Positions 2 through 23,292 of a stretch of DNA of 26,861 bases are shown in pieces. Both the position numbers and the translations under genes were made by a program. Positions within the stretch are counted from its first letter, which is position 1. Every line of letters starts with the position of its first letter. Below the pieces are notes generated by a model. It did no database searches and was not told where the DNA came from. It worked only from the letters and a program-made list of their open reading frames with translations. This DNA is from a virus, in IMG/VR virus record IMGVR_UViG_3300022693_000457, positions 1 through 26,861 of that record; one strand, written 5' to 3'.

Positions 2-1444
2 ATGAGTCTTAATTTTGAATGGTCGCATGAACAGAGCGACATTATTGCAGAAGGCGAAGAGGGCGAAGGCCATTTAATCGTCAATGCAACAGCTGGTAGT
101 GGTAAAACTTCTGTTATCGTATATGGTTTAGCTCCGGTTATGCCTATGGGTACAGTTGTTACTTCCTTCTCTAAGAAGATTGCAGAAGAATTAGCTAGCA
201 AATTACCAGGACATGTAATAAGCAAAACCTTTAACGCTTTTTGGCTGCACTTTCTTAAACAACGTCTGTCTAGTAGTATGAAAATAGATGGCTGGAAGGT
301 TAAGAAGATAGTTGAAAGCCGTTGTAAAAGTGTTGCAGATGCTAGTTGGGAAATTGCTCAATTAGTTAGCCTTGCTAAGGGAGAAGGTATTGGCATTACA
401 GTTGCAGATGAAGAGTCTGAATGGGCGGAACTGCTTGATAAGCATAGCATTGAAGTTGAAGGCTTTACTGATGCTCAGCTTATTAAAGGTGCTCGTAAGG
501 CTTTAGCTCTTAGTAGTAAAGATTATTCTACTATAGACTTTGATGATATGATGTATCTGAGCTTAAAGCTTATCTTGGAAAAAGGCTGGAAGTGTGATGT
601 AGCGCCTGTGGTTATGGTGGATGAAATGCAGGATTTGAATCCATTGCAGGAAGAGTTACTGCCTTATATGGGCGAGCGCATTATTGGCGTTGGTGACAAG
701 CATCAGGCGGTATATGGATTTCGCGGGGCTGGTGTTGATTCAATGTCTCGTATCGCAGAAAGATTTGATATGATGGAATTGCCCATGCATACAACTAGGC
801 GCGTACCTATAAGCGGAGTCAAATATGCTCAAAACTTTTGTTCAACCATTACAGCGGCTGAAAATGCTATTGAAGGTTCTGTTGAGCCGATGGACTTCGA
901 GACTATGGTTTCTGGCCTGCAGTATGGCTGTCTGGTTATGTGTCGTAATAATGCACCACTATTCACTGTAGCCCTACAACTTCTGCGTGAGAACAGAAAG
1001 TTTGAAATGTCAGGTAAGCTACCTAAACAACTAATTAAGTGGATTAATAAATTTAAAGCTCATGATAGTTTTGATTTAAAGTTTAAAATAGTTCGTTGGT
1101 GGCAGGTCGAAGCAACTCGTTTGCAGAAAGCTGGGAAGTATAGAACTATTGCGCGCGAGCAAGATAAGGTAGATACTTTAATGATACTCTGTGATAGGTA
1201 TGTTAGTGTTGCAGATATGTTGAAAGCTTTAGCTCTTATTAGCGAATCTCACGGGGGCACTAAGCTCACCACAATTCACGGGGCAAAAGGATTAGAGGCT
1301 GAAGATACTTTCTGGCTTGAGCCTAGCTTGTGTGACCCCTCGAAGTGTGAGCAGAAGTGGGAAGAGCAGCAGGAAATCAACCTCCAATTCGTGGCGTCTA
1401 CTCGTCATAAACGCAGCCTATATTTAGTAAGCAAGGCTGACTAA
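2..1444 (+). CDS. Superfamily 1 (UvrD/Dda-like) DNA helicase
   Basis: Probable ATP-driven ssDNA translocase/helicase for phage replication or recombination. In order I see a Q-motif-like Gln11, Walker A ATAGSGKT at residues 29-36, Walker B/motif II DEMQD at 207-211, motif III GDKHQAVYGFRGA near 230-245, motif V TTIHGAKGLEAED near 423-435, and motif VI VASTRHKRSLYLV close to the C-terminus. This is the SF1A order. At 480 residues it is much shorter than bacterial UvrD (about 720), closer to phage Dda-type enzymes, so the 2B region is probably reduced. The ATG is at base 2, so the SD site and any longer N-terminus fall outside the window; the Q motif only 11 residues in suggests the start is about right. 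It heads the + strand module that also holds a RecB-like nuclease and a Sak4-like ATPase. Family call is firm; the exact role is inferred. Confidence 0.9.
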   Translation: MSLNFEWSHEQSDIIAEGEEGEGHLIVNATAGSGKTSVIVYGLAPVMPMGTVVTSFSKKIAEELASKLPGHVISKTFNAFWLHFLKQRLSSSMKIDGWKVKKIVESRCKSVADASWEIAQLVSLAKGEGIGITVADEESEWAELLDKHSIEVEGFTDAQLIKGARKALALSSKDYSTIDFDDMMYLSLKLILEKGWKCDVAPVVMVDEMQDLNPLQEELLPYMGERIIGVGDKHQAVYGFRGAGVDSMSRIAERFDMMELPMHTTRRVPISGVKYAQNFCSTITAAENAIEGSVEPMDFETMVSGLQYGCLVMCRNNAPLFTVALQLLRENRKFEMSGKLPKQLIKWINKFKAHDSFDLKFKIVRWWQVEATRLQKAGKYRTIAREQDKVDTLMILCDRYVSVADMLKALALISESHGGTKLTTIHGAKGLEAEDTFWLEPSLCDPSKCEQKWEEQQEINLQFVASTRHKRSLYLVSKAD

Positions 1445-1456
1445 TTCAAACTAACC

Positions 1457-1472
1457 GCGCCTTAACCGGCGC
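1457..1472 (+). other. Short GC-rich hairpin in the leader of the next gene
   Basis: GCGCC (1457-1461) and GGCGC (1468-1472) form a perfect 5-bp stem with a 6-base loop, in the 41-base gap between the helicase gene and the next start. It is followed by AATAGGA, whose AGGA (1476-1479) is the likely ribosome-binding site. There is no T run, so it is not a terminator. It could be an RNA-processing or translation-control element, or chance. Confidence 0.35.
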
Positions 1473-1485
1473 AATAGGACAACTT

Positions 1486-2031
1486 ATGAAACTGATTAGA
1501 GCAAAAGTTAAAACCCCTTATAATTATGACGGGGATAAAGGGTTAGAAAAACACAAGGCCAGGATTTTAGCAATGGTCGCTTTATTAGGAAAATGGGGAA
1601 TTACTTTAAACCAAGAAAGGTTTGACGAAGGCAGTAACTATAGTTTATTCTCGTCCGATGAAGTTTTATTGTCTCCTGAGGAATATACAGATTTAGTAGT
1701 AGAGCACAAAATTGAATTTGAATCTTTCTCTTATCTTAAAACTTCAAGCAGTAAAGATGGAAATCCTTTTGAAGCTCTTATGGCTAAAATGGAAGAAGTT
1801 CTGAAAATGAACCCAACTCAAGGAGATGTTAATTATAACTCTAAGTGTGAGGTGCATACACCAGGCCAAGCATTGAGTATTTATAATGACACTCTGTTAA
1901 TGGAAGATGCCTGCACTGATGAATTACAGGGAAAACTTACGGAAGGGTGGCGAATCATTGCTGCTTGTCCACAACCAGACCAACGTAGACCTGATTACAT
2001 ACTTGGTCGCTACACACCGGAGAATAAATAA
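1486..2031 (+). CDS. Unknown phage protein, 181 aa
   Basis: I do not recognise a firm family. The protein is soluble, with no signal peptide or membrane segment. The N-terminus is basic (MKLIRAKVK) and the C-terminus, with DELQGKLTEGWRIIAACPQP followed by DYILGRY, resembles a small compact domain I associate with phage accessory proteins that end in a 'GWRI-AxCPQ...R-DYILGR' pattern. That resemblance is from memory and not verified. The start has AGGA (1476-1479), 6 bases upstream. The stop overlaps the next ATG by one base (TAATG at 2029-2033), so the two genes are probably translationally coupled. Confidence 0.75.
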   Translation: MKLIRAKVKTPYNYDGDKGLEKHKARILAMVALLGKWGITLNQERFDEGSNYSLFSSDEVLLSPEEYTDLVVEHKIEFESFSYLKTSSSKDGNPFEALMAKMEEVLKMNPTQGDVNYNSKCEVHTPGQALSIYNDTLLMEDACTDELQGKLTEGWRIIAACPQPDQRRPDYILGRYTPENK

Positions 2032-2381
2032 TGAACAACGGAACTGAACAAATGAAGTCACTTAGACCTGAGCTTAATCAACAATGCGCTGGCCAAGCAA
2101 TAGGCGCACCACTTCAAGCTCCAAACATTACGGGATTGAGTAATATGGCGAATTGCTTAGACACTTTAGCTATGAATGTTGATATATTGGAGAAATCCAT
2201 GTATACCTTAATGGAATTATTACTTATATCATTTCCAGAAGAAGTGCAAAAGTCTGATGATATGCCAGCCTTAAATGCCAGCAATAGGATTGATGAATTT
2301 TCCCGAAACATAATGGAGAATTCGGAGAATATTCTGGCAATAAGAAATCGTATTGCAGATATAACTAAATGCATCACTTAG
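2031..2381 (+). CDS. Unknown small protein, 116 aa
   Basis: No recognisable family. The N-terminal third is polar and Gln/Pro/Gly-containing. From about residue 35 it becomes a run of amphipathic helices (NMANCLDTLAMNVDILEKS, then IDEFSRNIMENSENILAIR) that look like a short coiled coil, so a small oligomeric or adaptor protein is possible. The start is supported by GGAG at 2019-2022, 8 bases before the ATG, and by the TAATG overlap with the gene before. The open frame on the other strand across 2114-2377 has no such support. The gene is followed by the structured RNA at 2397-2549. Confidence 0.7.
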   Translation: MNNGTEQMKSLRPELNQQCAGQAIGAPLQAPNITGLSNMANCLDTLAMNVDILEKSMYTLMELLLISFPEEVQKSDDMPALNASNRIDEFSRNIMENSENILAIRNRIADITKCIT

Positions 2382-2396
2382 GCTAGGGAAAGAAAA

Positions 2397-2549
2397 AATG
2401 GCTTGACAGGAAAGGGCGTGTGATAGCCTCGAATTGGCGACTTCGACATAGAACTCGCCGTCTTTTTGGCGGGGTTCGTATGGGGATGACGGCAAGCGAA
2501 GCGCAGGACGAAGTCCCACACTAGCCCAAAGGTTCCTGTCATAGCTATT
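2397..2549 (+). ncRNA. Structured RNA, class unknown (about 150 nt)
   Basis: No gene fits in 2382-2571, and the sequence folds by inspection into a closed multi-stem RNA. P1: 2397-2412 pairs with 2533-2549, 16 pairs (one G-U) with one bulged U (2542). P2: 2414-2422 pairs with 2517-2527, 9 pairs with a two-base bulge (UA 2522-2523). P3: GACUUCG (2439-2445) pairs with CGAAGUC (2509-2515). P4: 2451-2459 pairs with 2468-2477, 9 pairs with one bulged G and a GUCUUUUU loop. A possible P5 is GCG/CGC at 2496-2504. GCCGUC (2457-2462) can also pair with GACGGC (2488-2493), an alternative fold or pseudoknot. GC is 79/140 (56%) over 2401-2540, in clearly AT-rich flanks. It ends 11 bases before the SD site of the next gene, so it could be a cis-regulatory leader or a free small RNA. 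Strand is assumed from the flanking genes. Confidence 0.75.
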
Positions 2550-2571
2550 ATTTATAACCGAGGAGAAAAAC

Positions 2572-2796
2572 ATGAGTCTCATAGAGACTACAATCCATAG
2601 AGTATATCGGTTTAAAGGAAGATATAAAACAAGAGTATATTTACATTGCAACTATTGGAATTCAGATGTAGCTAAAACCTTAAGATTATATCATTTATTA
2701 AAAAAGTCTGGTAGGTATTCTAAGGTTACTCTTCATAAGAATTGTGTTTATGCTACTCAAAATTGCATGACCCAAAAGGAGATTAGTTGGGGCTAG
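2572..2796 (+). CDS. Unknown small basic protein, 74 aa
   Basis: A short, strongly basic protein (many Lys/Arg/Tyr) with four cysteines or more spread along it, but no clear zinc-finger spacing. No family recognised. The start is well supported by AGGAG (2561-2565), 6 bases before the ATG. It sits directly after the structured RNA, whose 3' stem ends at 2549, so that RNA forms its 5' leader if the two are co-transcribed. A nucleic-acid-binding role is possible from charge alone but not shown. It is followed by an 84-base gap carrying the promoter and operator of the next gene. Confidence 0.7.
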   Translation: MSLIETTIHRVYRFKGRYKTRVYLHCNYWNSDVAKTLRLYHLLKKSGRYSKVTLHKNCVYATQNCMTQKEISWG

Positions 2797-2816
2797 TTTA
2801 GAGGATAGTTAGGTTG

Positions 2817-2850
2817 TTTACAGTTGTTTAGATACATGTAATTATATATT
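2817..2850 (+). promoter_or_regulatory. Probable sigma70-type promoter
   Basis: TTTACA (2817-2822) is a 5/6 match to the -35 consensus. After a 17-base spacer comes AATTATATAT (2840-2849) as the -10 region. The same arrangement with a near-identical -10 block occurs at 5810-5842, which raises confidence in both. Transcription would start near 2852, about 30 bases before the regulator gene at 2881. Direct repeats GTTGTTTA at 2813-2820 and 2823-2830 overlap the -35 area. Confidence 0.55.
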
Positions 2851-2868
2851 TGTAGTTGCATGTATCTA
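2829..2868 (+). promoter_or_regulatory. Inverted repeat, probable operator of the RHH regulator
   Basis: TAGATACATG (2829-2838) and CATGTATCTA (2859-2868) form a perfect 10-bp inverted repeat with a 20-base spacer. The arms straddle the predicted -10 box and start point of the promoter at 2817-2850, and the next gene encodes a ribbon-helix-helix protein. That is the usual layout for autorepression. The repeat could instead act in RNA as a hairpin that ends two bases before the AGGAGG ribosome-binding site. Confidence 0.55.
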
Positions 2869-2880
2869 TTAGGAGGAAAC

Positions 2881-3114
2881 ATGGGAAGACAAAAGCAAAA
2901 TACAGTACCATTCAATACTCGTATTGATGCTAAGCTTAAAGAGAAAGTGGATGCTCTATTAGAAGACCCACTTAAACCAGGGAAGGTAAAGTATGGAGGC
3001 ATGATAGCCTACATTAATAAATTGGTAGCTGAGGATTTACGTAAAAGAGAGGCTATCGGAAGTGAATTATTAGAGGAGATGCAAAATGAGTTCACCAACT
3101 GTGTTGGAGAGTAA
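2881..3114 (+). CDS. Ribbon-helix-helix (Arc/MetJ-like) DNA-binding regulator, 77 aa
   Basis: Probable small dimeric transcription factor. The N-terminal QNTVPFNTRIDAKLKEKVDAL fits the RHH plan: a short beta strand of alternating polar residues (VPFNTRI) followed by an amphipathic helix, then a second helix (MIAYINKLVAEDLRKRE). The C-terminal 20 residues are acidic. I chose ATG 2881 rather than the in-frame ATG at 2860 because AGGAGG (2871-2876) lies 4 bases upstream of 2881 and inside the longer reading. Promoter and inverted repeat lie directly upstream. The end overlaps the next gene by 29 bases, so it is the first gene of a coupled run leading into the nuclease and the Sak4-like ATPase, which it may control. 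Confidence 0.72.
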   Translation: MGRQKQNTVPFNTRIDAKLKEKVDALLEDPLKPGKVKYGGMIAYINKLVAEDLRKREAIGSELLEEMQNEFTNCVGE

Positions 3115-3343
3115 ACTGCTTAGTGAAAATATTGACCGCAAAAACTTTGTAGATACTATGCGCCTGGACATAGTAAATGGTCGTGAAGTATCAGAAGAAC
3201 AAGTAAAGGAGGCTATCAAGTATCTACAGGAGGATAGTAAAGCTCGTGGTGATAAGCAAGTTAAAAGCCCAGCTGCTAAAAAGCCAGCTGCCAAAAAAGT
3301 TTCTGATGTTGATGTGGATGATTTGCTTGGGAGTATGTTCTAA
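3086..3343 (+). CDS. Unknown small protein with Lys/Ala-rich linker, 85 aa
   Basis: No family recognised. Residues 1-55 are charged and helical. Residues 60-72 carry a Pro-Ala-Lys repeat (SPAAKKPAAKK), a flexible basic linker like those in nucleic-acid-associated proteins, followed by an acidic, then hydrophobic tail (DVDVDDLLGSMF). A tail of this type often docks on a partner protein, and SSB-type acidic tips are one comparison, but that is inference. GAGGAG (3073-3078) lies 7 bases upstream of the ATG. The gene starts 29 bases inside the RHH gene and its stop overlaps the next start (TAATG at 3341-3345). Confidence 0.72.
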   Translation: MSSPTVLESKLLSENIDRKNFVDTMRLDIVNGREVSEEQVKEAIKYLQEDSKARGDKQVKSPAAKKPAAKKVSDVDVDDLLGSMF

Positions 3344-4347
3344 TGATTTATGAGCCTACTATTGAGAACTTAAAACGTTTGGATAAAAGTTATTTAGAAG
3401 AAGGAGCAAAAGATACTTTTGATTTTCCTTATCTTGTGGATAATACTATGCGCTGTAACTTTCGTAGTTGTCCTCAGAAGTTTTTTAAACGAGATATTCT
3501 TCGCAGAACTGGTAGTGCGGAAAGTATCCATTTAGTTGCTGGTAAAGCACTTGCGGAGGGGTTAGATGTCGTACGAAAGGAAAGGTTTGGTGCTTCCAAG
3601 ACGAAACTCGAAGACGCGGTTGCTAGAGGCTTTATTGCATTTACAAAAACGTACGGATATGATAATGCTAGAGATAACGATGAAGCATGGGCAGATAGCC
3701 CTAAAGCATATATCCGAATGGCGGAAGCCTTTCTCGCCTACTGGCAAAAATACTCAGGTAACAGTTCACCAGGCGGTACGCAACATATTATGGAGGATGG
3801 AACCGTTGCCAGTGAACAAGCACTTACAATCGAGCTTGATGTGCTTCACCCAGTTACTGGGAAGCCACTGCTCTACCATGTCCGCTGCGATGCAATGGAA
3901 GACTTTAATGGTGGACTGTGGTTGGTCGACGAAAAAACAACAGGAAGCCTTGGACCTTCTTGGCTTAAACAGTGGAACACTAGAAGCCAGTTTATGGGGT
4001 ACACATACGTCTTCCGAAAAGCAGGATACCCTGTCATTGGAGTCATTACTAGAGGTATTGGAATCCTTAAAACTAAAATCACCCATATGCAAGAGCCAGT
4101 ATCCTTTTCAGATTCAGTCCTTGAAAAATGGTGGCGTCAAGTAAACAGGGATTTTAGTCAGATGGTAGCTGCTTGGAAACTTAGACAGTATGATTATGAT
4201 TTCGCTGATGCCTGTAATACTTATGGCAAGTGTGATTATGCTACAAGCTGTATAGCTAAGTTTGAACATAAGGAACTTCAGATGATGCCTATTAGAATCT
4301 GGCGGCCTGATGCCCCTGAACTTTCCATAACACACGAGGTGATATGA
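3343..4347 (+). CDS. PD-(D/E)XK nuclease, RecB/Cas4-like, probable Fe-S cluster
   Basis: Probable DNA exonuclease for recombination or end processing. The RecB-family core is visible: a GKALAEGLD helix at 67-75 (place of the usual GxxxH motif), catalytic Asp183 in HVRCDAMED, then Asp196-x-Lys198 in LVDEKTT, and QFMGYTY just after (the usual Q-x3-Y). Cysteines 38 and 43 near the N-terminus and Cys291-x5-Cys297-x5-Cys303 near the C-terminus could form a 4Fe-4S cluster clasping the two ends, as in Cas4 and AddB, although the spacing differs from the Cas4 pattern. It is 334 residues, in the normal range. Bases about 3560-4130 use more GC-rich codons than the rest. It lies between small coupled genes and is followed by a Sak4-like ATPase, which suggests a joint recombination role. 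Confidence 0.82.
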   Translation: MIYEPTIENLKRLDKSYLEEGAKDTFDFPYLVDNTMRCNFRSCPQKFFKRDILRRTGSAESIHLVAGKALAEGLDVVRKERFGASKTKLEDAVARGFIAFTKTYGYDNARDNDEAWADSPKAYIRMAEAFLAYWQKYSGNSSPGGTQHIMEDGTVASEQALTIELDVLHPVTGKPLLYHVRCDAMEDFNGGLWLVDEKTTGSLGPSWLKQWNTRSQFMGYTYVFRKAGYPVIGVITRGIGILKTKITHMQEPVSFSDSVLEKWWRQVNRDFSQMVAAWKLRQYDYDFADACNTYGKCDYATSCIAKFEHKELQMMPIRIWRPDAPELSITHEVI

Positions 4348-4499
4348 TGGGACTTACTTATTTTAAGCGGTGGGGGTTCTCCATAAATGAAGGAGGAAAA
4401 TATGCTAACATACATATGAATTGGGCAAAGCGGGGAGTTTTTTTATATGTATGTGTAGGGTTTGTACGTGTAACAATTGGCGTAGGAGATAGATTCTGA
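4347..4499 (+). CDS. Unknown 50-aa protein coupled at both ends
   Basis: A short open frame fills the 151-base gap between two genes exactly. Its ATG (4347) overlaps the preceding TGA by one base, and its TGA (4497-4499) overlaps the next ATG at 4499 by one base. GAGG (4336-4339) lies 7 bases upstream; an in-frame ATG at 4344 is an alternative. The product starts MGLTYFKRWGFS and has a Val/Phe/Gly-rich C-terminal half (VFLYVCVGFVRVTIGVG) that might form a beta sheet or a weak membrane segment. No family recognised. The double overlap is the main evidence that it is real. Confidence 0.6.
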   Translation: MGLTYFKRWGFSINEGGKYANIHMNWAKRGVFLYVCVGFVRVTIGVGDRF

Positions 4500-4873
4500 T
4501 GAGTATGCCTATCGTTAGAAACTTTACCATTGAAATGCTGCGTTATGGTGATATGGAGGTAATGGCTAAAGCTAAATACTTTGCACCTCGATCTAACTTT
4601 AGAGCATATCCTAACATTGCTTTTGCTAGCCCAGACACGGGTATGACTTGGATGAGGTTAACTCAAAACATAAAGCCACAATGGAGTCATACTTATATGG
4701 TTTATATGCTTAAGCCAGAAAATCTAGACTTAGAATTACGGATTCATAACTTTTGGAAATGTAACTCTATTGAAGGTGATTTAAATTACTACAAACTATT
4801 ATTCCTTTCTCTTGAATTTAAGGGAATTGAATCATTTGAAACAGACTATTATAAGGTGAGAGAACATGACTAA
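4499..4873 (+). CDS. Unknown protein, 124 aa
   Basis: No family recognised. A globular, aromatic-rich protein with no signal peptide or membrane helix. It opens MSMPIVRNFTIEMLRYGDME and carries W/Y/N-rich stretches in the second half. AGGAG (4484-4488) lies 10 bases before the ATG. The first base overlaps the preceding stop, and the last 8 bases overlap the start of the Sak4-like ATPase gene, so it is translated as part of that run. Its place between a nuclease and an annealase-type ATPase suggests a DNA-metabolism role, by context only. Confidence 0.68.
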   Translation: MSMPIVRNFTIEMLRYGDMEVMAKAKYFAPRSNFRAYPNIAFASPDTGMTWMRLTQNIKPQWSHTYMVYMLKPENLDLELRIHNFWKCNSIEGDLNYYKLLFLSLEFKGIESFETDYYKVREHD

Positions 4874-5792
4874 AAAAATACATATAGAAGGTAGTGTATT
4901 AGAGCAAGCTGATTTACCATACAACATAATTGCAGGGCACAAGGTTCCAAAAGGCGAAGAAGCTCCCAAGATTTTACTACTTGGATTGCCTGGGGCTGGT
5001 AAAACTAGTTCCATTGCAACAGCAATTCAAGCGGGGTTAGAAGTATTTGTAATCTTCACAGAGCAAGGGAAAGATTCTTTATTAGAGCGAGTCTTAGCTT
5101 TAGACCTTACAAAAGAAGAACGTGGCAGGTTGCATTGGAACTATGTCGGGGCGAGTACTCCAGGTTGGAAAGGGCTGATGGTCTTTGCTAAAGAGCTTAA
5201 TTTGAAGGACCAGAAAGAATTACAAGTTGGTAAAGGTGCAGTTCCTAAAGAGCATCAGCAATTGATTGACTTGATTAGAGTTTGTTCTAATTTTATAGAC
5301 CAACATGGAGTTGAGTTTGGGGACATCTCTAGATTTGATAACGATAAAATGGTGGTGATAGATGGCCTATCCGGTATCAACGATATGTGCATGGATATTG
5401 TTGTTGGAGCTAAGGTTATTAAAACTATAGCTGACTGGGGTATGGCTATGGATGCTGAGATAAAATTTATCAAACAGCTTTGTAATGATTTAACCTGTGC
5501 CATGACTTTGATAGGACACCTTGAGCTAGATAAGGATGAAATGGATGGTCGAATTTATAAGTTTCCTAAGCTCTTAGGTAAAGCTAACACAGCATCTTTT
5601 GGTAAATACTTTAGTGATGTTATACTGGCTAAGGATTTAGGGGAGGAGTATGTATGGTCTACTCAGGAAAAAGAAATGCAGCTCAAAACCCGCAACCTTA
5701 GTAAATCTAAAAAACACGAACCCAGTTTTGTCCCTTTATTTAAAACTTGGGCGAAGCGATATGAAATTATGGCAGGATTTGATAAAATATAA
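4866..5792 (+). CDS. Sak4-like RecA-fold ATPase (probable ssDNA annealing/recombination)
   Basis: P-loop ATPase of the AAA_24/Sak4 type. Walker A is GLPGAGKT at residues 40-47 and Walker B is MVVIDGLS with Asp166. GHLELDKDE downstream fits the sensor/L1 region, and a conserved-looking FPKLLGKANTASFGKYFSDV block follows. The family has a RecA core and, in phages, promotes single-strand annealing together with an SSB. The next gene here encodes an SSB-like protein, which is the expected partner. Length 308 is normal. It starts within the gene before (8-base overlap) with a GGTGAG-type site just upstream. It is the last gene of its run, since a 113-base gap with a promoter follows. Confidence 0.82.
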   Translation: MTKKIHIEGSVLEQADLPYNIIAGHKVPKGEEAPKILLLGLPGAGKTSSIATAIQAGLEVFVIFTEQGKDSLLERVLALDLTKEERGRLHWNYVGASTPGWKGLMVFAKELNLKDQKELQVGKGAVPKEHQQLIDLIRVCSNFIDQHGVEFGDISRFDNDKMVVIDGLSGINDMCMDIVVGAKVIKTIADWGMAMDAEIKFIKQLCNDLTCAMTLIGHLELDKDEMDGRIYKFPKLLGKANTASFGKYFSDVILAKDLGEEYVWSTQEKEMQLKTRNLSKSKKHEPSFVPLFKTWAKRYEIMAGFDKI

Positions 5793-5809
5793 ACAGTAAT
5801 TATTAAAAC

Positions 5810-5842
5810 TTTACAGGATATTAGCCACACGTTATTATATAC
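5810..5842 (+). promoter_or_regulatory. Sigma70-type promoter for the SSB-like gene
   Basis: TTTACA (5810-5815), a 17-base spacer, then TATTAT (5833-5838): each box is 5/6 to consensus at ideal spacing. Transcription would begin near 5845, giving a leader of about 60 bases with a weak hairpin (GTTAG 5846-5850 with CTAAC 5865-5869). The -10 block shares 8 of 10 bases with the promoter at 2817-2850. The only downstream gene before the terminator at 6458-6490 is the SSB-like gene, so this would be a one-gene, high-output unit. Confidence 0.65.
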
Positions 5843-5905
5843 ATCGTTAGTCAGCGTAGTGCGTCTAACATAATTTAATTAAGGCCGAGCGCCATAGGAA
5901 ACAAA

Positions 5906-6424
5906 ATGAAAACTTTTAAAAAATCTACTATTACAGTTTTAACTTCTTCAATTGCATTAGGCGGATTTAATGCAGAATCTTTCTTGTCTACTGTAACAGA
6001 AGCAGTAACACAGGATACTGTTATACCTCATCCAGAAGGAGATTTCGAAGGTAATATCGATGACTTTAAATTGAAAGATGGTACGAGTAAATCAGATGGT
6101 AAAGTGTGGGTTCGTGCTACAGCCAAGATTCGTTGTTTAGATAAAAATGCAGTTGCCGATTCTGGTCTTGATGATTTATTTGTCTATGATGAATTTTTCT
6201 TAGACCTTACAGACGAAGGTGGTCTGGATATGGGTGGTAATAAAAATGTAAGCTTGGGTCGTATGCGTACAGCTACTGGTCTTAATGTTGAAGGTGAAGA
6301 ATTTAGTTTGAACATGCTTAAGAATACCCAAGTTGGTTACACAGTTAAGCATAGACTAAATGACCAAGGTGAGCCTCGTGCTTATGTATCTTCTGTATAT
6401 GCCCCAGATGGTGATGACGAATAA
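5906..6424 (+). CDS. SSB-like single-stranded DNA-binding protein
   Basis: Probable ssDNA-binding protein, 172 aa. Evidence is indirect: beta-rich, OB-fold-compatible composition; KVWVRATAKIRCLD and DDLFVYDEFFLDLTDEGGLD stretches with alternating hydrophobics; a short acidic tip (PDGDDE) of the type SSBs use to recruit partners; and position directly after a Sak4-like ATPase, which usually pairs with an SSB. The basic N-terminus (MKTFKKSTITVLTSSIALGG) is not a convincing signal peptide because it lacks a clear hydrophobic core and cleavage site. AGGA (5895-5898) lies 7 bases before the ATG. It is flanked by its own promoter and terminator, fitting a protein needed in large amounts. Confidence 0.62.
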   Translation: MKTFKKSTITVLTSSIALGGFNAESFLSTVTEAVTQDTVIPHPEGDFEGNIDDFKLKDGTSKSDGKVWVRATAKIRCLDKNAVADSGLDDLFVYDEFFLDLTDEGGLDMGGNKNVSLGRMRTATGLNVEGEEFSLNMLKNTQVGYTVKHRLNDQGEPRAYVSSVYAPDGDDE

Positions 6425-6438
6425 TATTATTTTTTAAA

Positions 6439-6460
6439 TTTTAATTAGGTTTTAATTAGG
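6439..6460 (+). repeat. Tandem 11-bp direct repeat
   Basis: TTTTAATTAGG occurs twice back to back (6439-6449 and 6450-6460), in the gap between the SSB-like gene and the methyltransferase gene. The second copy runs into the 5' arm of the terminator hairpin. It may be a slippage product or a binding site; nothing else supports a function. Confidence 0.6.
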
Positions 6461-6490
6461 GAGTTGATGAAAATCTTCTCCCTTTTTTTT
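6458..6490 (+). terminator. Rho-independent terminator
   Basis: AGGGAG (6458-6463) pairs with CTCCCT (6478-6483), with a further GA/TC pair possible inside, and is followed by eight T residues (6483-6490). It closes the SSB-like transcription unit 34 bases after its stop. The methyltransferase start at 6510 follows at once, so downstream genes need read-through or another promoter; I see none with good boxes in between. Confidence 0.85.
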
Positions 6491-6509
6491 AATAAATTTG
6501 GAGTATAAT

Positions 6510-7811
6510 ATGCCAGTATCAATAGTAGAGATTTCAACTATAGTCATAGGTAATAATAGAAAAAGAAAAGAGTTTCCTGTTGCAGCTATGGAAGAATTAT
6601 CTGATGGTATTCAAGATGTTGGGCTTATCAATCCTATAGTCATAGAGATGAAGGAAGGTATTAGATATTTAGTAGCGGGTGAGCGTAGACTTAAAACCAT
6701 AACGGCCTTTACAGATGCTTATATGTTTGGGTCTCTCAAGGTAGCTGCAGGGTTCATACCTTGTTTGGACCAGGGAAATATTGAACTTCTTAAAGCCCGT
6801 AAGATTGAACTGTTTGAGAATACACAACGGTTAGATTTTACTTGGCAGGAAAAAGATGCAGCTATGGCAGCTGTGCAGGAACTCATGGAGGAAATAGAAG
6901 AAGAACCTATAACCTTAGACAACCTTACTAGAACTTTGTTGAAGAAAGAATCTGTAAGTTATAATGATAAAGTTAAAGTTGAAAAAGCTTTACGCAGACA
7001 AGAGTATGCTGAGGACCCTTTAGTTTCTAAGGCCAAATCATCTAAGGATGCTGATAAAATAATTGAAAGTAAATTACTGGAAACTCATAAAGAAAAAATG
7101 GCAGGTATGTTTAAGGAAATAGAGAGTCCACATAATATAATCTTTGCAGATAGCATAGAACATTGTAAAGGGTATAAAGATAATACGTTTGACGTGGTTG
7201 TTTCAGACCCTATCTATGGAATAGACATGGACAAACAAAATGCCTTTCAAAGAGTCAAAATGCAAGAGGGGAAACTTCATGGGTACGATGATAGCTACAT
7301 TAATTGGAAGCGTATGTTTGATGTTATGCCTGAAATACTTTATAAAATCACAAAAGAGGAAGCTGCATGTTACTTATTTTGTGACATTTCCAGATTCGAT
7401 GAACTGTCACAGCGCATGGAGGCAGCAGGCTGGTCTGTATGGAATCGTCCTATCATCTGGTATAAAGGAAACATTGGGTCTTTGCCGAGACCTAAGCATG
7501 GCCCTCGATACACCTATGAGTGCATCTTATTTGCCACCAAAGGGGATAGAGAAACAACGGGAGTCTATCACGATGTTATTACTATCCCACAAACAACTGG
7601 ACATTCTCACGGGGCGGGCAAACCTATTGCTCTTTACGAGGAGTTACTTTCAAGGTGTGCCCATCCTGGAGATAGAGTTCTTGACTTTTGCGCTGGCTCT
7701 TTTCCCATTCTCACGGCATGTAATAAACTAAGCTTGCAATGTGATGCCATAGAGTTGGATGAGAAATGGAGAAATGAATCTGAAATTAGAAAAGTAGATT
7801 CCCTTAACTAG
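6510..7811 (+). CDS. ParB-like domain fused to a class beta DNA methyltransferase
   Basis: Residues 1-75 match the ParB/Srx N-terminal fold: INPIVIEM then YLVAGERRLKTI, the GERR box typical of the family. Residues about 205-430 are a methyltransferase with motif IV first (SDPIYGID, Asp233-Pro-Ile-Tyr236) and motif I late (LDFCAGSFPI at about 391-400), the class beta order for N6-adenine or N4-cytosine enzymes. Two key positions differ: DPIY replaces DPPY, and the SAM-binding loop reads CAGSF rather than FAGSG. Such ParB-MTase fusions are common in phages and probably protect DNA against host restriction. I chose ATG 6510 over an upstream in-frame TTG because GGAG (6500-6503) lies 6 bases before it. 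Bases about 7240-7700 use GC-richer codons. 433 aa. Confidence 0.85.
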   Translation: MPVSIVEISTIVIGNNRKRKEFPVAAMEELSDGIQDVGLINPIVIEMKEGIRYLVAGERRLKTITAFTDAYMFGSLKVAAGFIPCLDQGNIELLKARKIELFENTQRLDFTWQEKDAAMAAVQELMEEIEEEPITLDNLTRTLLKKESVSYNDKVKVEKALRRQEYAEDPLVSKAKSSKDADKIIESKLLETHKEKMAGMFKEIESPHNIIFADSIEHCKGYKDNTFDVVVSDPIYGIDMDKQNAFQRVKMQEGKLHGYDDSYINWKRMFDVMPEILYKITKEEAACYLFCDISRFDELSQRMEAAGWSVWNRPIIWYKGNIGSLPRPKHGPRYTYECILFATKGDRETTGVYHDVITIPQTTGHSHGAGKPIALYEELLSRCAHPGDRVLDFCAGSFPILTACNKLSLQCDAIELDEKWRNESEIRKVDSLN

Positions 7812-7821
7812 GAGAGTTATT

Positions 7822-8235
7822 ATGAATAAAATTATACTACAAAAACAACCAACACCACAGACTTGTACCCATGCTAGTCTAGCTATGGTAGCTGGTGTAA
7901 CAGTTGAAGATGTTATAGAGAAGGTAGGACCACAGCCTCTGGGTCATGAGCTATTGGAAGAGTTATTTAACTTCTATCATTTAAAGCATGAGTATATTCA
8001 TGGGTACTCGATTGATGTTGGGTCTGTCTATATAGTAGACGTTCCGAGTTTACAGACAAAGGCTACCTTACATAAAATAGTTCTAGACTTAAGAGGTACA
8101 GATGCTCCCGTCTTGGTATACGACCCGATGCTTTCTCAAGGAGAAGCTTATACTATTGAGATGTTAACTAATGGTGTGTTGCCTTTTGGTAATGCCATAA
8201 AAGTCTGGAAGGAGTTACCTAAGTATGTTAACTAA
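7822..8235 (+). CDS. C39-like (papain-fold) cysteine peptidase homologue
   Basis: Residues 9-22 (Gln9 ... QTCTHASLAM) match the peptidase C39 start: Gln six residues before the catalytic Cys15, then a helix. His84 in LHKIVLD and Asp101 in VYDPM complete a Cys-His-Asp triad at the family spacing. At 137 aa it is a bare single domain, with no transporter or signal peptide, so it would act inside the cell. Targets are unknown; cleaving a host protein, or a non-proteolytic papain-fold role, are both possible. AGGAG (7810-7814) is 7 bases before the ATG and overlaps the preceding stop. The gene ends 11 bases inside the polymerase gene, so it is coupled to it. Confidence 0.68.
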   Translation: MNKIILQKQPTPQTCTHASLAMVAGVTVEDVIEKVGPQPLGHELLEELFNFYHLKHEYIHGYSIDVGSVYIVDVPSLQTKATLHKIVLDLRGTDAPVLVYDPMLSQGEAYTIEMLTNGVLPFGNAIKVWKELPKYVN

Positions 8236-9958
8236 TTATTGTTATATCCCAGAGGATTGGAATGGTATCTTATTGGTTGGGGATTATCCTTATAAAGAAG
8301 ATAAGAAATCTGGTATTGCTTTTAGAAGTTCACAAGGTCTTCAGTTAAGAAAGCTTTTAACAGAAGCTGGTATTCAATTTAAAAAATGTGGAGTTTGCCA
8401 TGCGCTTAGCTATACCCCAGTACGGGGACAGGTTGACAATGAAATCCTTAAGAAGACAGCAGCAAAATCAGATGAATCATCTCGCGAATGGGGAGGGAAA
8501 TTTGTTACCGGAAAGCTCTTTGATTCATTTGAGGAACTTAGAAATCTCATTGAAGAAATATGCCCCTCATTTATCTACAGTTTCGGAAAGATGGGTTTGC
8601 TTGCGTTGCATGAAGAGACTAACGTTGACGGGTATCGTGGGTCCCAGCTTGAGTACGCGGGCATCCCTTATATCCCAACACACTCAATGGCCAGGCTGTC
8701 CAAGCAGTGGAAGCTCAGGCATCTCATTGTACACGATATCCGGAGGGCGTCTGAGTGCGGCTTCAAATGGGACGTGCCAGATTATTCATTCATAACTAAC
8801 CCAGACTTTGAAACTGTATTGTACAACTTAGGATTGTTACAGGCAATGGCTTGTAATGGAGCTCATCTTTCTGTAGATATAGAGACTAGATGGGCGAGAC
8901 ATATATCCTACGTAGGCATAGCTTGGAGTAAACATAATGCTATCTGTATACCAATTATTAAGCCTCTCAATGGCGGTAACTATTGGAGCGATGATGAGTT
9001 GTTTACTATTGTTATGGCTCTTAAGTCATTACTTGAGATGCCGCAGGTTAGAATCTCAGGACAGAACTACCACTATGACGCTAGTTTTTTCGCCCGTAAT
9101 TGGGGAATACGAAGTCATATCTGGTGTGATACAATGGTCGGATTTCACTCCTACTTCGCAGCAGATATTGACAAAGGCCTGCATGTTTTGTCCTCTTTGT
9201 TTTGTGATTACCACGTCTATTGGAAAGATGAGAGTGAAAATCACGAGCCGACAGTGGCAGGAGAACTCAAGTATCAAGAATATAACTGTAAGGATTGCTG
9301 CCATACCTTCGAGATAGCTGAGAGTATGATGTCACCAGATGGTTTACTTGCAGGGAATTCTCGGGCTTGGCAGTTCCAATATGATATGTGGAATCCTTTA
9401 TTTAATATTATGCTCAGAGGAACTAATGTTGATATGGAAGAGCGTAAAAATATCTATAATTCTACTAGGGAGAAGATAGGCGAGGTAACTTATCTTATAA
9501 CTAAATTTACTAAAGATGTTTTTAATCCAGAGCCTAAACATTTCCCAGCGAATACTACTAGTATAAAAGTAATTGCAGATAAGAAAAGATATAGAGAAAA
9601 GTTTGGTGGTTGGTGGGGTAGTCCTGGAAAGTGTAATGAATTTTTCTATGATGTTATGGGAGTTGAACCTGTAACAAAACGTAATAGACTAACAGGTAAA
9701 TGGGGGAAGACAACAGATGATAATGCTTTGGGAATCATTCAAGACAGGGAACCTATTCTATCGGTTGTCGCTGAGCTTATTAGTCTTTATAGAAGTCTTT
9801 GCAAGTTCCTTGACGCTGTTAACAGTACTGTATCTAGTGACGGGCGCTACCGTTCTGGATACAAACTTGCCGGAACTTCAACCTATAGATTGGCGAGTGG
9901 TTCTGACCCATTTGACGAAGGGCTTAACCTTCAGAACATAAGTAAAGGAGACGGATAA
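8225..9958 (+). CDS. Split family A DNA polymerase, N-terminal part (UDG-like + 3'-5' exonuclease + thumb)
   Basis: First of two polymerase polypeptides, 577 aa. Residues 1-190 resemble a family 4/5 uracil-DNA glycosylase (VGDYPYKED, GIAFRSSQG, then THSMARLSKQW), a domain known in front of some phage PolA enzymes. Residues about 200-400 are a DEDD proofreading exonuclease with all acids present: Asp218/Glu220 (VDIET), Asn281/Asp285 (QNYHYD) and Tyr353/Asp357 (YNCKD). The thumb and first palm part follow, ending in GTSTYRLASGSDP and NLQNI (Asn571), the template-binding signature before motif A. The frame then stops after SKGDG; motifs A, B and C are in the gene at 10277-11212. AAGGAG (8209-8214) serves the ATG. 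GC-rich patches (for example 8641-8760, 68/120 GC) alternate with AT-rich ones. Confidence 0.9.
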   Translation: MLTNYCYIPEDWNGILLVGDYPYKEDKKSGIAFRSSQGLQLRKLLTEAGIQFKKCGVCHALSYTPVRGQVDNEILKKTAAKSDESSREWGGKFVTGKLFDSFEELRNLIEEICPSFIYSFGKMGLLALHEETNVDGYRGSQLEYAGIPYIPTHSMARLSKQWKLRHLIVHDIRRASECGFKWDVPDYSFITNPDFETVLYNLGLLQAMACNGAHLSVDIETRWARHISYVGIAWSKHNAICIPIIKPLNGGNYWSDDELFTIVMALKSLLEMPQVRISGQNYHYDASFFARNWGIRSHIWCDTMVGFHSYFAADIDKGLHVLSSLFCDYHVYWKDESENHEPTVAGELKYQEYNCKDCCHTFEIAESMMSPDGLLAGNSRAWQFQYDMWNPLFNIMLRGTNVDMEERKNIYNSTREKIGEVTYLITKFTKDVFNPEPKHFPANTTSIKVIADKKRYREKFGGWWGSPGKCNEFFYDVMGVEPVTKRNRLTGKWGKTTDDNALGIIQDREPILSVVAELISLYRSLCKFLDAVNSTVSSDGRYRSGYKLAGTSTYRLASGSDPFDEGLNLQNISKGDG

Positions 9959-10284
9959 TGAAGATACTTAAAGCAGAAATAAAAGAGGGTAGCAGGGCAA
10001 CAGGACGTACCTTTAGAAAACTCCTTAGGGCTTTAGCTGATGCTTCCGAGGGTGCTGATGTTTTATACTGGGTTAGTAATTACTCTATGGTGAAGGGGAC
10101 TTATAAAGATGCTCGTTATATATGCGAGGGTTACGGTTTAAACTCAGAAGACGATAGCCGTAAATTTGAGATTGACTTTCCTAGTGGAGGTTCTTTAACG
10201 TTTACATATGCATCTAAACGTGAGGTAGAGATAATACGTATGAAGCATCGTGTAAAATTAGTTGAGGATTTATACCATGAGTAG
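9958..10284 (+). CDS. 108-aa protein between the polymerase halves, possible degenerate P-loop fold
   Basis: It sits exactly in the break of the polymerase. Its ATG overlaps the N-part stop by one base (TAATG, 9956-9960), its AAAGGAG site (9944-9950) lies within the last codons of the N-part, and its end overlaps the C-part start by 8 bases. No GIY-YIG, HNH or LAGLIDADG motif is visible, so it does not look like a homing endonuclease, and no intein motifs are present. EGSRATGRTFRKLL followed by ADVLYWVSNYSM resembles a P-loop NTPase start in which the usual GK[ST] is GRT, then a beta strand; FPSGGSLTFTYAS and VKLVEDLYHE fit later strands. This resembles small phage NTPase-like proteins, but without the Walker lysine it may only bind, not hydrolyse. 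Function unknown. Confidence 0.72.
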   Translation: MKILKAEIKEGSRATGRTFRKLLRALADASEGADVLYWVSNYSMVKGTYKDARYICEGYGLNSEDDSRKFEIDFPSGGSLTFTYASKREVEIIRMKHRVKLVEDLYHE

Positions 10285-11212
10285 GGCAGCGGATATGTTA
10301 ACTAGGTGGGGATATAGTTTCTCTAAGCCTAATATTAAAACAGTGTTTATACCGGACCCAGGTTATGTTGTCATTGATGTTGACTTGGAGCAAGCTGATG
10401 CACAGGTAGTTGCTTGGGAGTCTGATTGTGAAAGGCTTAAGCAAATATTCAAAGACCCGACTAAGGATTTGCATGATGAAAACACCAATCTCATTTATGG
10501 ATTTTGTAGAGATGATATTCAATCTGGAACCATATCAGATAGAAATTTTACACGGCTTCGAAAGAATACAAAAGGGGGAGTTCATGGGACGAACTATCGT
10601 GGTAAGGCGCCGACGATTGCAAAAACTCTGGGAATTACAATCCCCGAGGCCCAAGCCTTCCAAGATACTTGGTTTGAGAAGAACCCAGAAATCTTGGATT
10701 GGCATAAGGCAACAGAAGCCGCGATTATTGAGAAAGGATATATCGAAAATAAATTTGGCTTCCGGAGAATATTCCTCGAAAGGCTTTCGCAAGATGTACT
10801 CAACGAGGCGCAAGCGTGGATTCCCCAGTCAACGGTTGGTAACGTAATCAATAAAGGGTGGATGAATATAGAGGAGCGTATCAATGGGAGGAAGTGTGGG
10901 GGTCATGGCTTCTTTTCTAAGGATTACAAGAATGCTGCTAGCCAAGAATTGATTGGTAAAGAATTATCTAAAAGATTTGTTAGAAATCTTTCTCGTATTG
11001 AGCATGTGAAAGTTCTTATGCAGGTTCATGATAGTCTGGTGATGATGGTTAGGAAGAGTGACCTTAAACACTTGCTACCTGACATCCGTGAATGTATGCT
11101 TGTACCTATTCCCTATGATGAGCCGTTAACAATTGGTGTAGGGAATCCGGAGATTAGCGATAGAAGTTATGGGGAAGTTAAACCTCATACGTGGGACGGA
11201 GATAAAATATGA
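10277..11212 (+). CDS. Split family A DNA polymerase, C-terminal catalytic part
   Basis: Carries the palm and fingers, 311 aa. Motif A is FIPDPGYVVIDVDLEQADAQ with catalytic Asp36 and an Asp (41) where E. coli Pol I has Glu710. Motif B is RKNTKGGVHGTNY, with His at the position equal to Phe762 of E. coli Pol I. Motif C is MQVHDSL, with Ser in place of the second acid. Residues before motif A (KPNIKTVF) match the linker that normally follows NLQNIP, so no conserved segment seems lost at the split. I use ATG 10277, with GAGG at 10264-10267, rather than an in-frame TTG at 10262. Both parts are needed for a complete active site, so they must associate. GC-rich codons dominate about 10560-10830. 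Confidence 0.9.
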   Translation: MSRAADMLTRWGYSFSKPNIKTVFIPDPGYVVIDVDLEQADAQVVAWESDCERLKQIFKDPTKDLHDENTNLIYGFCRDDIQSGTISDRNFTRLRKNTKGGVHGTNYRGKAPTIAKTLGITIPEAQAFQDTWFEKNPEILDWHKATEAAIIEKGYIENKFGFRRIFLERLSQDVLNEAQAWIPQSTVGNVINKGWMNIEERINGRKCGGHGFFSKDYKNAASQELIGKELSKRFVRNLSRIEHVKVLMQVHDSLVMMVRKSDLKHLLPDIRECMLVPIPYDEPLTIGVGNPEISDRSYGEVKPHTWDGDKI

Positions 11213-11221
11213 AGAATAATT

Positions 11222-12445
11222 ATGCCTGAGATTGGGCGCAACTTCGATAACTTTATTAACAAATACATCGAGTATACAGATAATACTGAGTCGCCAAAAC
11301 AGATGCATTTTTGGACTGCAATCAGTATAATAGCTGGGGCTTTAAGTGGTAAGTGTAAGTTTAAGCATGAACGCTTAGAGGCTAAACCTAATTTTTATAT
11401 AGTATTTGTGGGGCCTCCTGGTGTAGTTAAGAAGTCAACTACTCTGGGTTACGGTATGAAGCTTTTAAAGAAAGTGGAGGGTATTAACATTGGACCTGAC
11501 AGCGGAACTTGGCAGGCAATCTTTCAGTATATGTCTGAGATAACTGATACATATAAAATACATGGACGTTCAGTTCTACAGAGTAATTTAATGCTACCCG
11601 TATCTGAGTTAGGTACGTTGCTTGACCTTAAGGATGATGCTATGGTAGATAGCTTTACAGATTTGTGGGATGCCGTAGAGGGAACTAAGACTAGGAAGAC
11701 TATGGGCGGTGGGACTATTACTGTTGAGAGTCCTTTTGTAAACATGATAGGCTGTACTACACCCGAGTGGATTAAACGGAGTTTTGATAGCTATACTATT
11801 GGAGGTGGTTTGGCAAGTAGGATTATTTTTGTAATAGGTAAGAAGTCAAAAACCTTTATTGCTTATCCGAAGGAGGATAAGGCTTTAATTGCATTAGGTA
11901 AAAGACTTGAAGATGATTTGAAAATTATATCTAAGATGAGTGGTACATTCAGGTTTTCTGAAAGAGCTGCAGAGTATGCTGAGAAGTGGTATATGCAGCA
12001 TAGACAGAAACCAGCTCCTCATTTAAAATCAAAGCAGATGCAGGGTTACTCAAGCAGGAAGCAAACTCATATTCATAAACTGTGTGTTTGTCTTAGTGCA
12101 GCAGAGACTAGTGATAGGGTTATACATAAGAGACATTTTGTTATGGCTTTAAAACTCTTAGAGGGAACTGAGAAAACTATGCATGAAGTTTATGAAGGAG
12201 TCACGGAAGATAGAAACGCAGAAAAAATCATGAAGGTTAAAGAATACTTAGTAGACTATCGAATAGAGGGTATACGAAAAAAAGAATTGTTTAAACCTAT
12301 GATGCTTTTAATGGGCTGGGATGATTACGAACGAGCAATTAATGCCCTGCAATTGGCGGGCTATGTTAAGCTAGTTGATACAGGTTCAGGTATCTTAATC
12401 AAACCAGACCGTAAACTTTTAAATACTTATGACGAGGAAGTATAA
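11222..12445 (+). CDS. DUF3987-like replicative helicase/primase-helicase
   Basis: P-loop protein, 407 aa. The loop reads FVGPPGVVKKSTT (Gly64 to Thr73), with Val and Lys where GK[ST] would be; from memory this GPPGVVxKST form recurs in phage DUF3987-type replication proteins. LMLPVSELGTLLDLKD and TDLWDAVEG fit the acidic Walker B region, and PFVNMIGCTTPEWIKRSF then GGGLASRIIFV fit the sensor and arginine-finger region. Residues about 330-400 look like a winged helix (KELFKPMMLLMGWDDYERAINALQLAGYVKL). Directly after the polymerase, it is the best candidate for the replicative helicase. SD support is weak (GAAG about 7 bases upstream of ATG 11222), so translation may depend on coupling. Stop and next start overlap as TAATG. 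Confidence 0.8.
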   Translation: MPEIGRNFDNFINKYIEYTDNTESPKQMHFWTAISIIAGALSGKCKFKHERLEAKPNFYIVFVGPPGVVKKSTTLGYGMKLLKKVEGINIGPDSGTWQAIFQYMSEITDTYKIHGRSVLQSNLMLPVSELGTLLDLKDDAMVDSFTDLWDAVEGTKTRKTMGGGTITVESPFVNMIGCTTPEWIKRSFDSYTIGGGLASRIIFVIGKKSKTFIAYPKEDKALIALGKRLEDDLKIISKMSGTFRFSERAAEYAEKWYMQHRQKPAPHLKSKQMQGYSSRKQTHIHKLCVCLSAAETSDRVIHKRHFVMALKLLEGTEKTMHEVYEGVTEDRNAEKIMKVKEYLVDYRIEGIRKKELFKPMMLLMGWDDYERAINALQLAGYVKLVDTGSGILIKPDRKLLNTYDEEV

Positions 12446-13044
12446 TGATATTAACATTAAAAAGTAATACCTTTATAATACCGTGGCACTCCATTGTTAC
12501 GATGCACGTTGCTGGGAGTTATGCAGTCTTAACTCTAACCCGTGGTGTAGAGGAAGTGCAAATGGATACTCCTGAGAGGGCAATGCAATTTCTTAAAGCG
12601 CTAACAATTAGATACATGGAGGGAGAAAAACGTGTAGACCTCCAACAATTAAAAATAGATATAATGGAGTACCACGCTTATGCTAAAGATAATAATGAAT
12701 CGACCATCGTACCAGGAACTGATAGAGACATATCTGGAACTATTGCAGAGGAATTGGGAGAGGACACTGCAAGACTCCTCGCCGATGGACCTGCTGATGA
12801 TGGTGTCGAAGGGACAGCTTCAACTGTGGGAAGTGATATCGGAACAGAAGAGGAATGGATATCCCTCGGATTCTCAGGTACTTGGCCTGGGCAAGACGAT
12901 ACCGAAGATGCACCAGATGCGGGATATGAACTTCCGTCCGGAGTTGGTGGGGATGGGACTGACAAGGATATTGAATTACCAGAATCGACGGGTGATACGG
13001 ATAGTATACTTTTCGAGGGAGTTCCACCAAAACTTTTTGACTGA
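12445..13044 (+). CDS. Unknown acidic protein, 199 aa, possibly longer through a +1 frameshift
   Basis: Residues 1-75 form a small mixed fold (MILTLKSNTFIIPWHSIVTM... RAMQFLKALTIRYME). Residues about 85-195 are acidic, Gly/Asp/Glu/Ser/Thr-rich and probably disordered. No family recognised. AGGA (12435-12438) lies 6 bases before the ATG, which overlaps the preceding stop. The +1 frame is also open from 12680 to 13180, but its product before 13037 looks like shadow sequence, while its last 47 residues look like a real domain. So this gene may be read through into it, or the domain may be a separate gene. Codons from about 12690 to 13020 are GC-rich (65/120 at 12841-12960). Confidence 0.7.
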   Translation: MILTLKSNTFIIPWHSIVTMHVAGSYAVLTLTRGVEEVQMDTPERAMQFLKALTIRYMEGEKRVDLQQLKIDIMEYHAYAKDNNESTIVPGTDRDISGTIAEELGEDTARLLADGPADDGVEGTASTVGSDIGTEEEWISLGFSGTWPGQDDTEDAPDAGYELPSGVGGDGTDKDIELPESTGDTDSILFEGVPPKLFD

Positions 13045-13180
13045 TTTAGATTACTTTAAAGTATGGTGTAATAAAAATGGGATTGACGAGATTGAGTTTT
13101 GGGGTAGACCTGGGTTTGAGAAAACCTTAAAGCCCGAAGGCTTCAAGACTAACAGGATTGTAATGTCACTTACTCTCTAG
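13037..13180 (+). CDS. C-terminal domain in the +1 frame (frameshift product, broken gene or TTG-start gene)
   Basis: The frame reads LDYFKVWCNKNG, IDEIEFWGRPGFEKTLKPEG and a hydrophobic end. This pattern (acidic strand, W-GR-GW/F, K-L-x-P-x-GF) matches a C-terminal block I know from small phage proteins, so it is probably coding. It has no good start of its own: the only candidate close by is TTG 13037, with GAGGGAG (13015-13021) too far upstream at 15 bases. The upstream gene passes through CCAAAACTTTTTGACTGA just before its stop; a +1 shift there, or a one-base homopolymer error in the assembly, would join the two. Coordinates use the TTG. The stop lies 11 bases inside the convergent gene. 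Confidence 0.5.
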   Translation: MTDLDYFKVWCNKNGIDEIEFWGRPGFEKTLKPEGFKTNRIVMSLTL

Positions 13181-22890: not shown

Positions 22891-23292
22891 TTATAAACTC
22901 AACTCGTAATAATAAACTCTCCAAGGCCCACCCGTTCCTACTTGCTCTGCCCTAGAGACTAAGGAACCTGCAGATAGAGAACCCATAGCTTCCTCAAGAG
23001 AAGTAAAAGTAGCTGTTTGTTTTACCACACCAAATACAGCACGAACAGCACTCGGGAGTACATACACACTTTCAGAAGCGGCCTTAATTACAGTCGTAGT
23101 TCCATAGTTAGCTACATTTGCTAGGCCAACATCGGACTTACTAAGAGCTTCAAATTCCACATAAAACCTAAGGAGTAATGTTTTAATTAATCTTATATGG
23201 TTATCTCCTTCAGACATTGGGTCTGAAATTAAAGGCCAAAGGTCATTAAGCAATGTTATATTCGAATCGACTGATATAGTTTCTACTGCCAT
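22891..23292 (-). CDS. Tail-fibre-type protein, 133 aa
   Basis: Residues about 18-45 (WPLISDPMSEGDNHIRLIKT and on) contain SEGDxHIRLIK, the block found near the start of many phage tail fibres before the first beta-helical or coiled part. LSKSDVGLANVANYGT follows, another fibre-type turn (compare the 'VGLGNVdN' element). The remainder is short and beta-like, so this is probably a short fibre or fibre adaptor instead of a full receptor-binding protein. GGGGAG lies 7 bases before the ATG, which overlaps the preceding stop (TAATG). Confidence 0.68.
   Translation of the reverse strand: MAVETISVDSNITLLNDLWPLISDPMSEGDNHIRLIKTLLLRFYVEFEALSKSDVGLANVANYGTTTVIKAASESVYVLPSAVRAVFGVVKQTATFTSLEEAMGSLSAGSLVSRAEQVGTGGPWRVYYYELSL

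Follow-up and report, generated by a model that had tools for sequence, protein, structure and literature searches.

A long closed RNA rod between two early-operon genes of a phage contig, probably a functional RNA, with comparable rods in related phages

Here we describe a structured RNA element at positions 2397-2549 of a single 26,861-base IMG/VR virus record (IMGVR_UViG_3300022693_000457), the whole of which was analysed and is called the window below. This stretch is predicted to fold into one closed rod, long and irregular, that fills the space separating two genes of the same strand. The structure is real, and we put the probability that it is a functional RNA at about 0.8. Comparable hairpins are found in related phages, where those of two relatives demonstrably co-evolve, so the window element is probably a real RNA element that controls or processes the messages of the phage. 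As to its role, we tentatively favour, by analogy and at somewhat less than even odds, a cis-acting intercistronic RNA of the early or replication mRNA, most likely a processing or stabilising hairpin of the RNase III type. To our knowledge, few structured noncoding RNAs have been catalogued from lytic marine phages. By itself, the window element is one more orphan; following it exposed a multi-copy RNA element without an Rfam entry in the cultured Vibrio phage VS-ABTNL-3, which provides an experimentally reachable system for the possible roles of such rods in processing, antitermination and protein binding.

The window is a partial contig with a GC content of 40.1%. Its plus-strand genes span 2-13044 and encode a UvrD-like helicase, a PD-(D/E)XK nuclease, a Sak4-like ATPase, a DNA methylase, a DNA polymerase and a primase/helicase; the minus-strand genes, presumably those of the virion, start at 13170. 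At least three same-strand genes precede the element, and 10 nt separate its 3′ end from the ribosome-binding site that serves the next gene (Table 1). Protein searches and PHROG/Pfam scans gave no relatives for the genes on either side (116 and 74 aa), so both are orphans, and protein searches with the neighbouring genes found no close relative. The closest relatives of the phage as a whole are Vibrio phage VS-ABTNL-3 (MF497422), with 46% identity in the nuclease and 55% in the Sak4-like protein, and two metagenomic phages, G006 (IMGVR_UViG_3300039008_000027) and G004 (IMGVR_UViG_3300036546_000107), which are about equally close (47%). In all three of them the helicase directly adjoins the homologue of the window's 76-aa gene, so the block formed by the 181-aa gene, the 116-aa gene, the RNA and the 74-aa gene is an insertion or rearrangement relative to them. 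The window's 76-aa gene (at 2881) has, just 5′ of its ribosome-binding site, an AT-rich inverted repeat at 2829-2868 with 16-nt arms, TAGATACATG...CATGTATCTA. Further along, two separate genes (8225-9958 and 10262-11212) encode DNA polymerase A, with a 108-aa ORF between them, and the ORF that lies between the polymerase pieces of VS-ABTNL-3 has the C-terminal domain found in the 181-aa protein of the window. The N terminus of the polymerase/exonuclease protein encoded at 8225-9958 also matches a uracil-DNA-glycosylase domain (Pfam E 1.7e-5).

Table 1. Features of the element and its surroundings (window positions), and of the comparable elements in VS-ABTNL-3 (positions in its record)
Feature	Position	Strand	Remarks
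181-aa gene	1486..2031	+	phrog_8380
116-aa gene	2031..2381	+	orphan, upstream of element; stop codon 15 nt 5′ of element
Structured RNA element, whole closed rod	2397..2549	+	MFE -63.9 to -64.9 kcal/mol; 16 closing pairs
Closing stem, 5′ arm	2397..2412	+	pairs with 2533-2549
TGACAG, terminal motif, 5′ half	2404..2409	+	common to both G004 hairpins
Second stem, 5′ arm	2414..2422	+	pairs with 2517-2527
Inner irregular arm	2426..2502	+	alternative folds within 3 kcal/mol
Competing pairing 2454-2462 / 2488-2496	2454..2496 (span)	+	8/9 complementary
Small inner hairpin GGACGAAGUCC	2506..2516	+	
Second stem, 3′ arm	2517..2527	+	bulged U2522-A2523
AAAGG, long side of 1x5 asymmetric internal loop	2528..2532	+	opposite A2413, between closing and second stems
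Closing stem, 3′ arm	2533..2549	+	bulged A2542; part of inverted repeat
CTGTCA, terminal motif, 3′ half	2536..2541	+	common to both G004 hairpins
Ribosome-binding site GAGGAG of downstream gene	2560..2565	+	beyond the fold
74-aa gene	2572..2796	+	orphan, basic product, downstream of element
VS-ABTNL-3 early-operon element	38770-38931		rod 38830-38931, small hairpin after
VS-ABTNL-3 late-operon start element	45-212		before PVS_01
VS-ABTNL-3 late 3′ element	about 23244-23384		3′ of last late gene PVS_24

The predicted fold contains the closing stem of 16 pairs, the second stem of 9 pairs and the inner stems that a sequence-only reading had described. The closing stem (7+9 pairs, with one G-U at 2400-2546) has pair probabilities of 0.86-1.0 except for its outermost pair, and the second stem is built of 4+5 pairs. 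Probabilities are near 1 for the outer pairs and the inner arm is less certain: in a constrained fold, an alternative pairing of 2436-2440 with 2455-2459 reaches -61.2 kcal/mol vs -63.9 kcal/mol, a cost of 2.7 kcal/mol, and keeps the closing stems intact. The competing pairing of 2457-2462 with 2488-2493 noticed earlier is present and forms part of a longer one. For the RNA of 2390-2560 the minimum free energy is -64.9 kcal/mol, vs -46.8 ± 4.0 kcal/mol in dinucleotide shuffles (z -4.55; 0/200 shuffles), and the antisense of the element folds at -57.3 kcal/mol (z -4.28). When both strands of the whole phage were scanned in stretches of 160 nt, only a GC-rich coding stretch at 19241 proved more stable. 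The GC content of 2397-2549 is 53.6%, for which the earlier figure of 56% was slightly high. That no protein gene fits the element was borne out: on the plus strand no reading frame is open across it, and PHROG and tblastn searches gave no relatives for the two minus-strand frames that are (54 aa and 126 aa).

The searches for known families and for further copies agree with the sequence-only reading, which had matched the RNA to no family. Rfam 15 gave no match at the gathering threshold and none that is credible at E<=10, a tRNA/tmRNA search found none, and blastn against phage and plasmid collections returned short chance matches only. The 16-mer of the stem has 13 exact matches in viral contigs, all without the element, as chance predicts, and a genome collection searched with one exact 21-mer gave no copy. 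A single-sequence covariance model (R1), run on 60 loci and 29 records, matched only the window element itself; no second copy was found in the window, the relatives, or the phage and plasmid collections, and the gaps before the nuclease in MW202489 and PP438425 are unstructured. Among the main genes of the first 12.4 kb, PHROGs and Pfam revealed no reverse transcriptase gene, as would accompany a retron msr-msd. On these comparisons the window element is a singleton in the collections searched.

The relatives nevertheless carry comparable rod hairpins of ~100 nt between their genes, two to three per genome. They are found in the early operon, next to lysis genes and at the 3′ end of the late operon, and most of them follow closely on a stop codon. 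VS-ABTNL-3 has three elements (Table 1), in each of which a small hairpin with an invariant UU bulge comes after a long rod. The small hairpin occurs in three forms, AAUUU-CAAUCGC-GACA-GCGAUUG-UU-AAAUU, AAAGU-CAAUCGA-CGAG-UCGAUUG-UU-ACUUU and AUUUU-CAAUCGG-CGAG-CCGAUUG-UU-AAAAU, the first of which recurs in G006, with 39/40 bases identical, after a diverged rod. Within the alignment of these four copies, 94% of cells pair and 7 pairs change on both sides, a compensatory signal that is reached by 1/500 shuffles, and slid structures drop to 21-53%. Covariation extends to the apex of the rod (RUUU-GGC ... GCU-CUU-AAY), and compensatory changes occur between copies within the same VS-ABTNL-3 genome. 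Rfam has no such family when searched with the relatives' elements. As far as these few sequences from two phages go, the multi-copy two-hairpin element (loci L075 and L076 of MF497422, and L038:1648-1800) is a genuine, undescribed RNA element. Besides the known phage, a search with a degenerate pattern of the small hairpin gave apparent chance matches only, and scans of genome contigs gave nothing; a first version of the small-hairpin pattern had matched a DNA-polymerase gene by chance.

These phages contain many unrelated long hairpins, several of which lie within coding sequence or fold equally well on either strand. The idea that every relative has a rod 3′ of the 172-aa gene was considered and rejected, because the hairpins at that place are heterogeneous and some do not differ in stability between the strands. 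Giant hairpins of ~190-200 nt, with repeated CCCCGATATTACCCCG / GGGACGCACTAGGGACGC units, lie near the boundary of minus- and plus-strand genes in G004 (oriented 25702-25900; L019:3218-3396) and G006 (oriented 2345-2531; L021:2349-2528), and resemble origins of replication or divergent regulatory regions. Another candidate structured RNA, seen in two sequences from two phages (L036:1035-1110 and L043:610-680), is a common hairpin CGAARCGCCG-[stem]-GGATTAGTCTCC-[stem]-CGGCGTTAGTACTTKGGSCGG, whose stems differ yet are complementary. Small proteins encoded 3′ of the early rod in three relatives (L035:3623-4259, L038:1987-2214 and L040:1041-1399) have in common a motif like SLEEIVxxSxxxxG, and one of them looks fused to an AP2-like DNA-binding domain.

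How the window element relates to these rods can be judged from both its place and its sequence. Like the VS-ABTNL-3/G006 element, it is a long intergenic sense-strand rod of the early operon, soon after a stop codon; it differs in having neither the CAAUCG...CGAUUG-UU hairpin nor the UUUGGC/GCUCUUAA internal-loop motif. The small hairpin, searched as TCAAUCG-N6-CGAUUGUUA, is absent from the window with up to 3 mismatches allowed, and covariance models of the whole element (R2) and of the apex (R3), run on the window with filters off, gave no match at 2397-2549; the window element is thus not a detectable member of that family, and covariation was found for the VS-ABTNL-3/G006 element only. 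Suggestive, though post hoc, are the rod ends common to the window and G004. Both G004 rods, at 29727-29824 (early) and 22526-22627 (beside the M15 peptidase gene), have the form TTGACAG...CTGTCA, as does the window at 2403-2541, and of the four places in the searched loci where the hexamer pair stands at such spacing, three are the window rod and the two G004 rods. The inner GGGCGG apex is not common to them, the G004 rods measure ~100 nt vs 138 between the motif ends in the window, and no formal homology test between them was passed. The 181-aa gene lies 0.4 kb 5′ of the element in the window, and in both G004 and G006 its homologue is found ~2 kb 5′ of the early rod. Homology of the window element to the relatives' elements is unproven.

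A property common to all these rods is the strand on which they fold better. In eight of eight elements from four phages, chosen partly by their sense-strand stability, the gene-sense strand is the more stable (sign test, 1 in 256), with sense/antisense energies of -63.9/-57.2 kcal/mol in the window, -45.4/-35.7, -49.4/-44.9 and -41.2/-39.3 in VS-ABTNL-3, -56.7/-43.6 and -54.7/-51.0 in G006, and -61.2/-47.3 and -70.1/-63.1 in G004. The third VS-ABTNL-3 copy sits at a convergent junction, and its sense was assigned from its small hairpin. As a DNA palindrome should have no preferred strand, we lean towards a role at the RNA level. Of the sequence-only reading, then, the core claim of an undescribed structured RNA is supported by the stability, the intergenic position, the sense-strand preference, the lack of an Rfam family and the analogues in relatives; the roles that it suggested are not supported.

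Among the other explanations, an accidental fold of a GC-rich spacer would suit a singleton, and strong hairpins always turn up in genome-wide scans. We consider it very improbable in view of the shuffling and scanning results, the boundaries that match the gap exactly and the analogous elements in relatives. A mobile palindrome (a MITE- or REP-like insertion) or a DNA-level inverted repeat, transcribed incidentally, would account for a GC-rich block with a terminal inverted repeat in AT-rich surroundings, for the block that is missing between the same neighbours in three relatives and for an antisense strand that folds well too. Such an insertion might be expected in further copies, yet the searches found none (in genomes, with one exact 21-mer), target duplication is not evident, and the strand bias points the other way, so that this origin seems rather improbable. 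The sequence-only reading had also proposed a leader that controls the 74-aa gene, which could be a switch (riboswitch or attenuator). The element lies directly 5′ of that gene, and both the competing pairing and the small cost of the alternative inner fold favour a switch. However, that alternative spares the closing stems, and the ribosome-binding site, which is beyond the rod, has no pairing partner in the MFE fold of 2340-2640, which leaves a switch that hides it unsupported; there is no visible expression platform (terminator or anti-RBS) and no Rfam riboswitch. The 2-3 elements of the relatives, at several places in their operons, are also more in keeping with the processing or stability of messages than with one regulatory leader, and we consider the switch to be as improbable as an accidental fold.

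A processed or independently transcribed noncoding RNA that acts in trans, by binding a host or phage protein or by serving as a decoy, would fit the 153-nt size, the closed ends and the elaborate inner arms, and the relatives' elements are multi-copy and have conserved internal-loop and bulge motifs that resemble protein-binding sites. We think it unlikely, if well worth keeping in mind: no promoter-like site above chance adjoins the element, it has no terminator, a conserved single-stranded seed is not identifiable because homologues are absent, and no sequence match was found in phage and plasmid collections or, with one exact 21-mer, in genomes. The sponge or decoy role suggested earlier found no positive evidence. 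A broader possibility, to which we give similarly modest credence, is that this phage group has, in several copies in its early and late operons, a rapidly evolving class of long structured RNAs that would bind some factor of the host or the phage and govern the transcription programme or the fate of messages in a manner not described so far; its variants would be the two-hairpin elements of the VS-ABTNL-3 branch and the TTGACAG-ended rods of the window's branch. Less probable than these is a cis-acting antitermination or anti-pausing RNA like put of phage HK022, which has two such RNAs of ~70 nt with two stem-loops, one per early operon (PMC9378689). Both put and the window element are phage-encoded structured RNAs, and VS-ABTNL-3 has one two-hairpin element in the early operon and another where the late operon begins. 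However, its third copy closes the late operon, and antitermination there would make little sense, which speaks against this role. The window element, moreover, is one closed rod, twice as long and with no second hairpin beside it, and lies inside an operon, whereas put lies near the operon start, 3′ of an early promoter. On the plus strand, a terminator scan found none at the element, and no intrinsic terminator is predicted from there to 6 kb.

Processing of the message by RNase III is the reading that we prefer. The element would be transcribed within the operon (cotranscription is inferred from gene order), and the rod would fold once the ribosome has left the upstream 116-aa gene. Host RNase III could then recognise the ~25 stacked pairs broken by the asymmetric internal loop, as at the early-region sites of phage T7, and its cut would separate or trim the two messages, so that a stable 3′ end and a ribosome-binding site free of structure remain. 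Three points weigh against this reading, namely that a processing site would need nothing like so elaborate an inner arm, that the window element is without a detectable homologue and outside the covarying family, and that unrelated long hairpins are numerous in these phages. The R1.1 site of T7, located between genes 1.0 and 1.1, forms a 60-nt hairpin whose asymmetric internal loop is 4/5 (PMC6121014). The T7 sites and the window element are alike long irregular hairpins, intercistronic and with an asymmetric internal loop. At 153 nt vs ~60 the window element is the larger and has elaborate inner arms, and common descent is not claimed. The position of the rod on the sense strand between phage genes that are probably cotranscribed, its closeness to a stop codon, the lack of a terminator, the several elements per relative, including one at the late 3′ end, and a helix of about two turns with an asymmetric loop (16 pairs, the 1x5 loop and 9 pairs) together make the T7 type the best fit. 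T7, too, has several such sites per genome, as the relatives have two to three analogous rods, and the window's partial contig has one.
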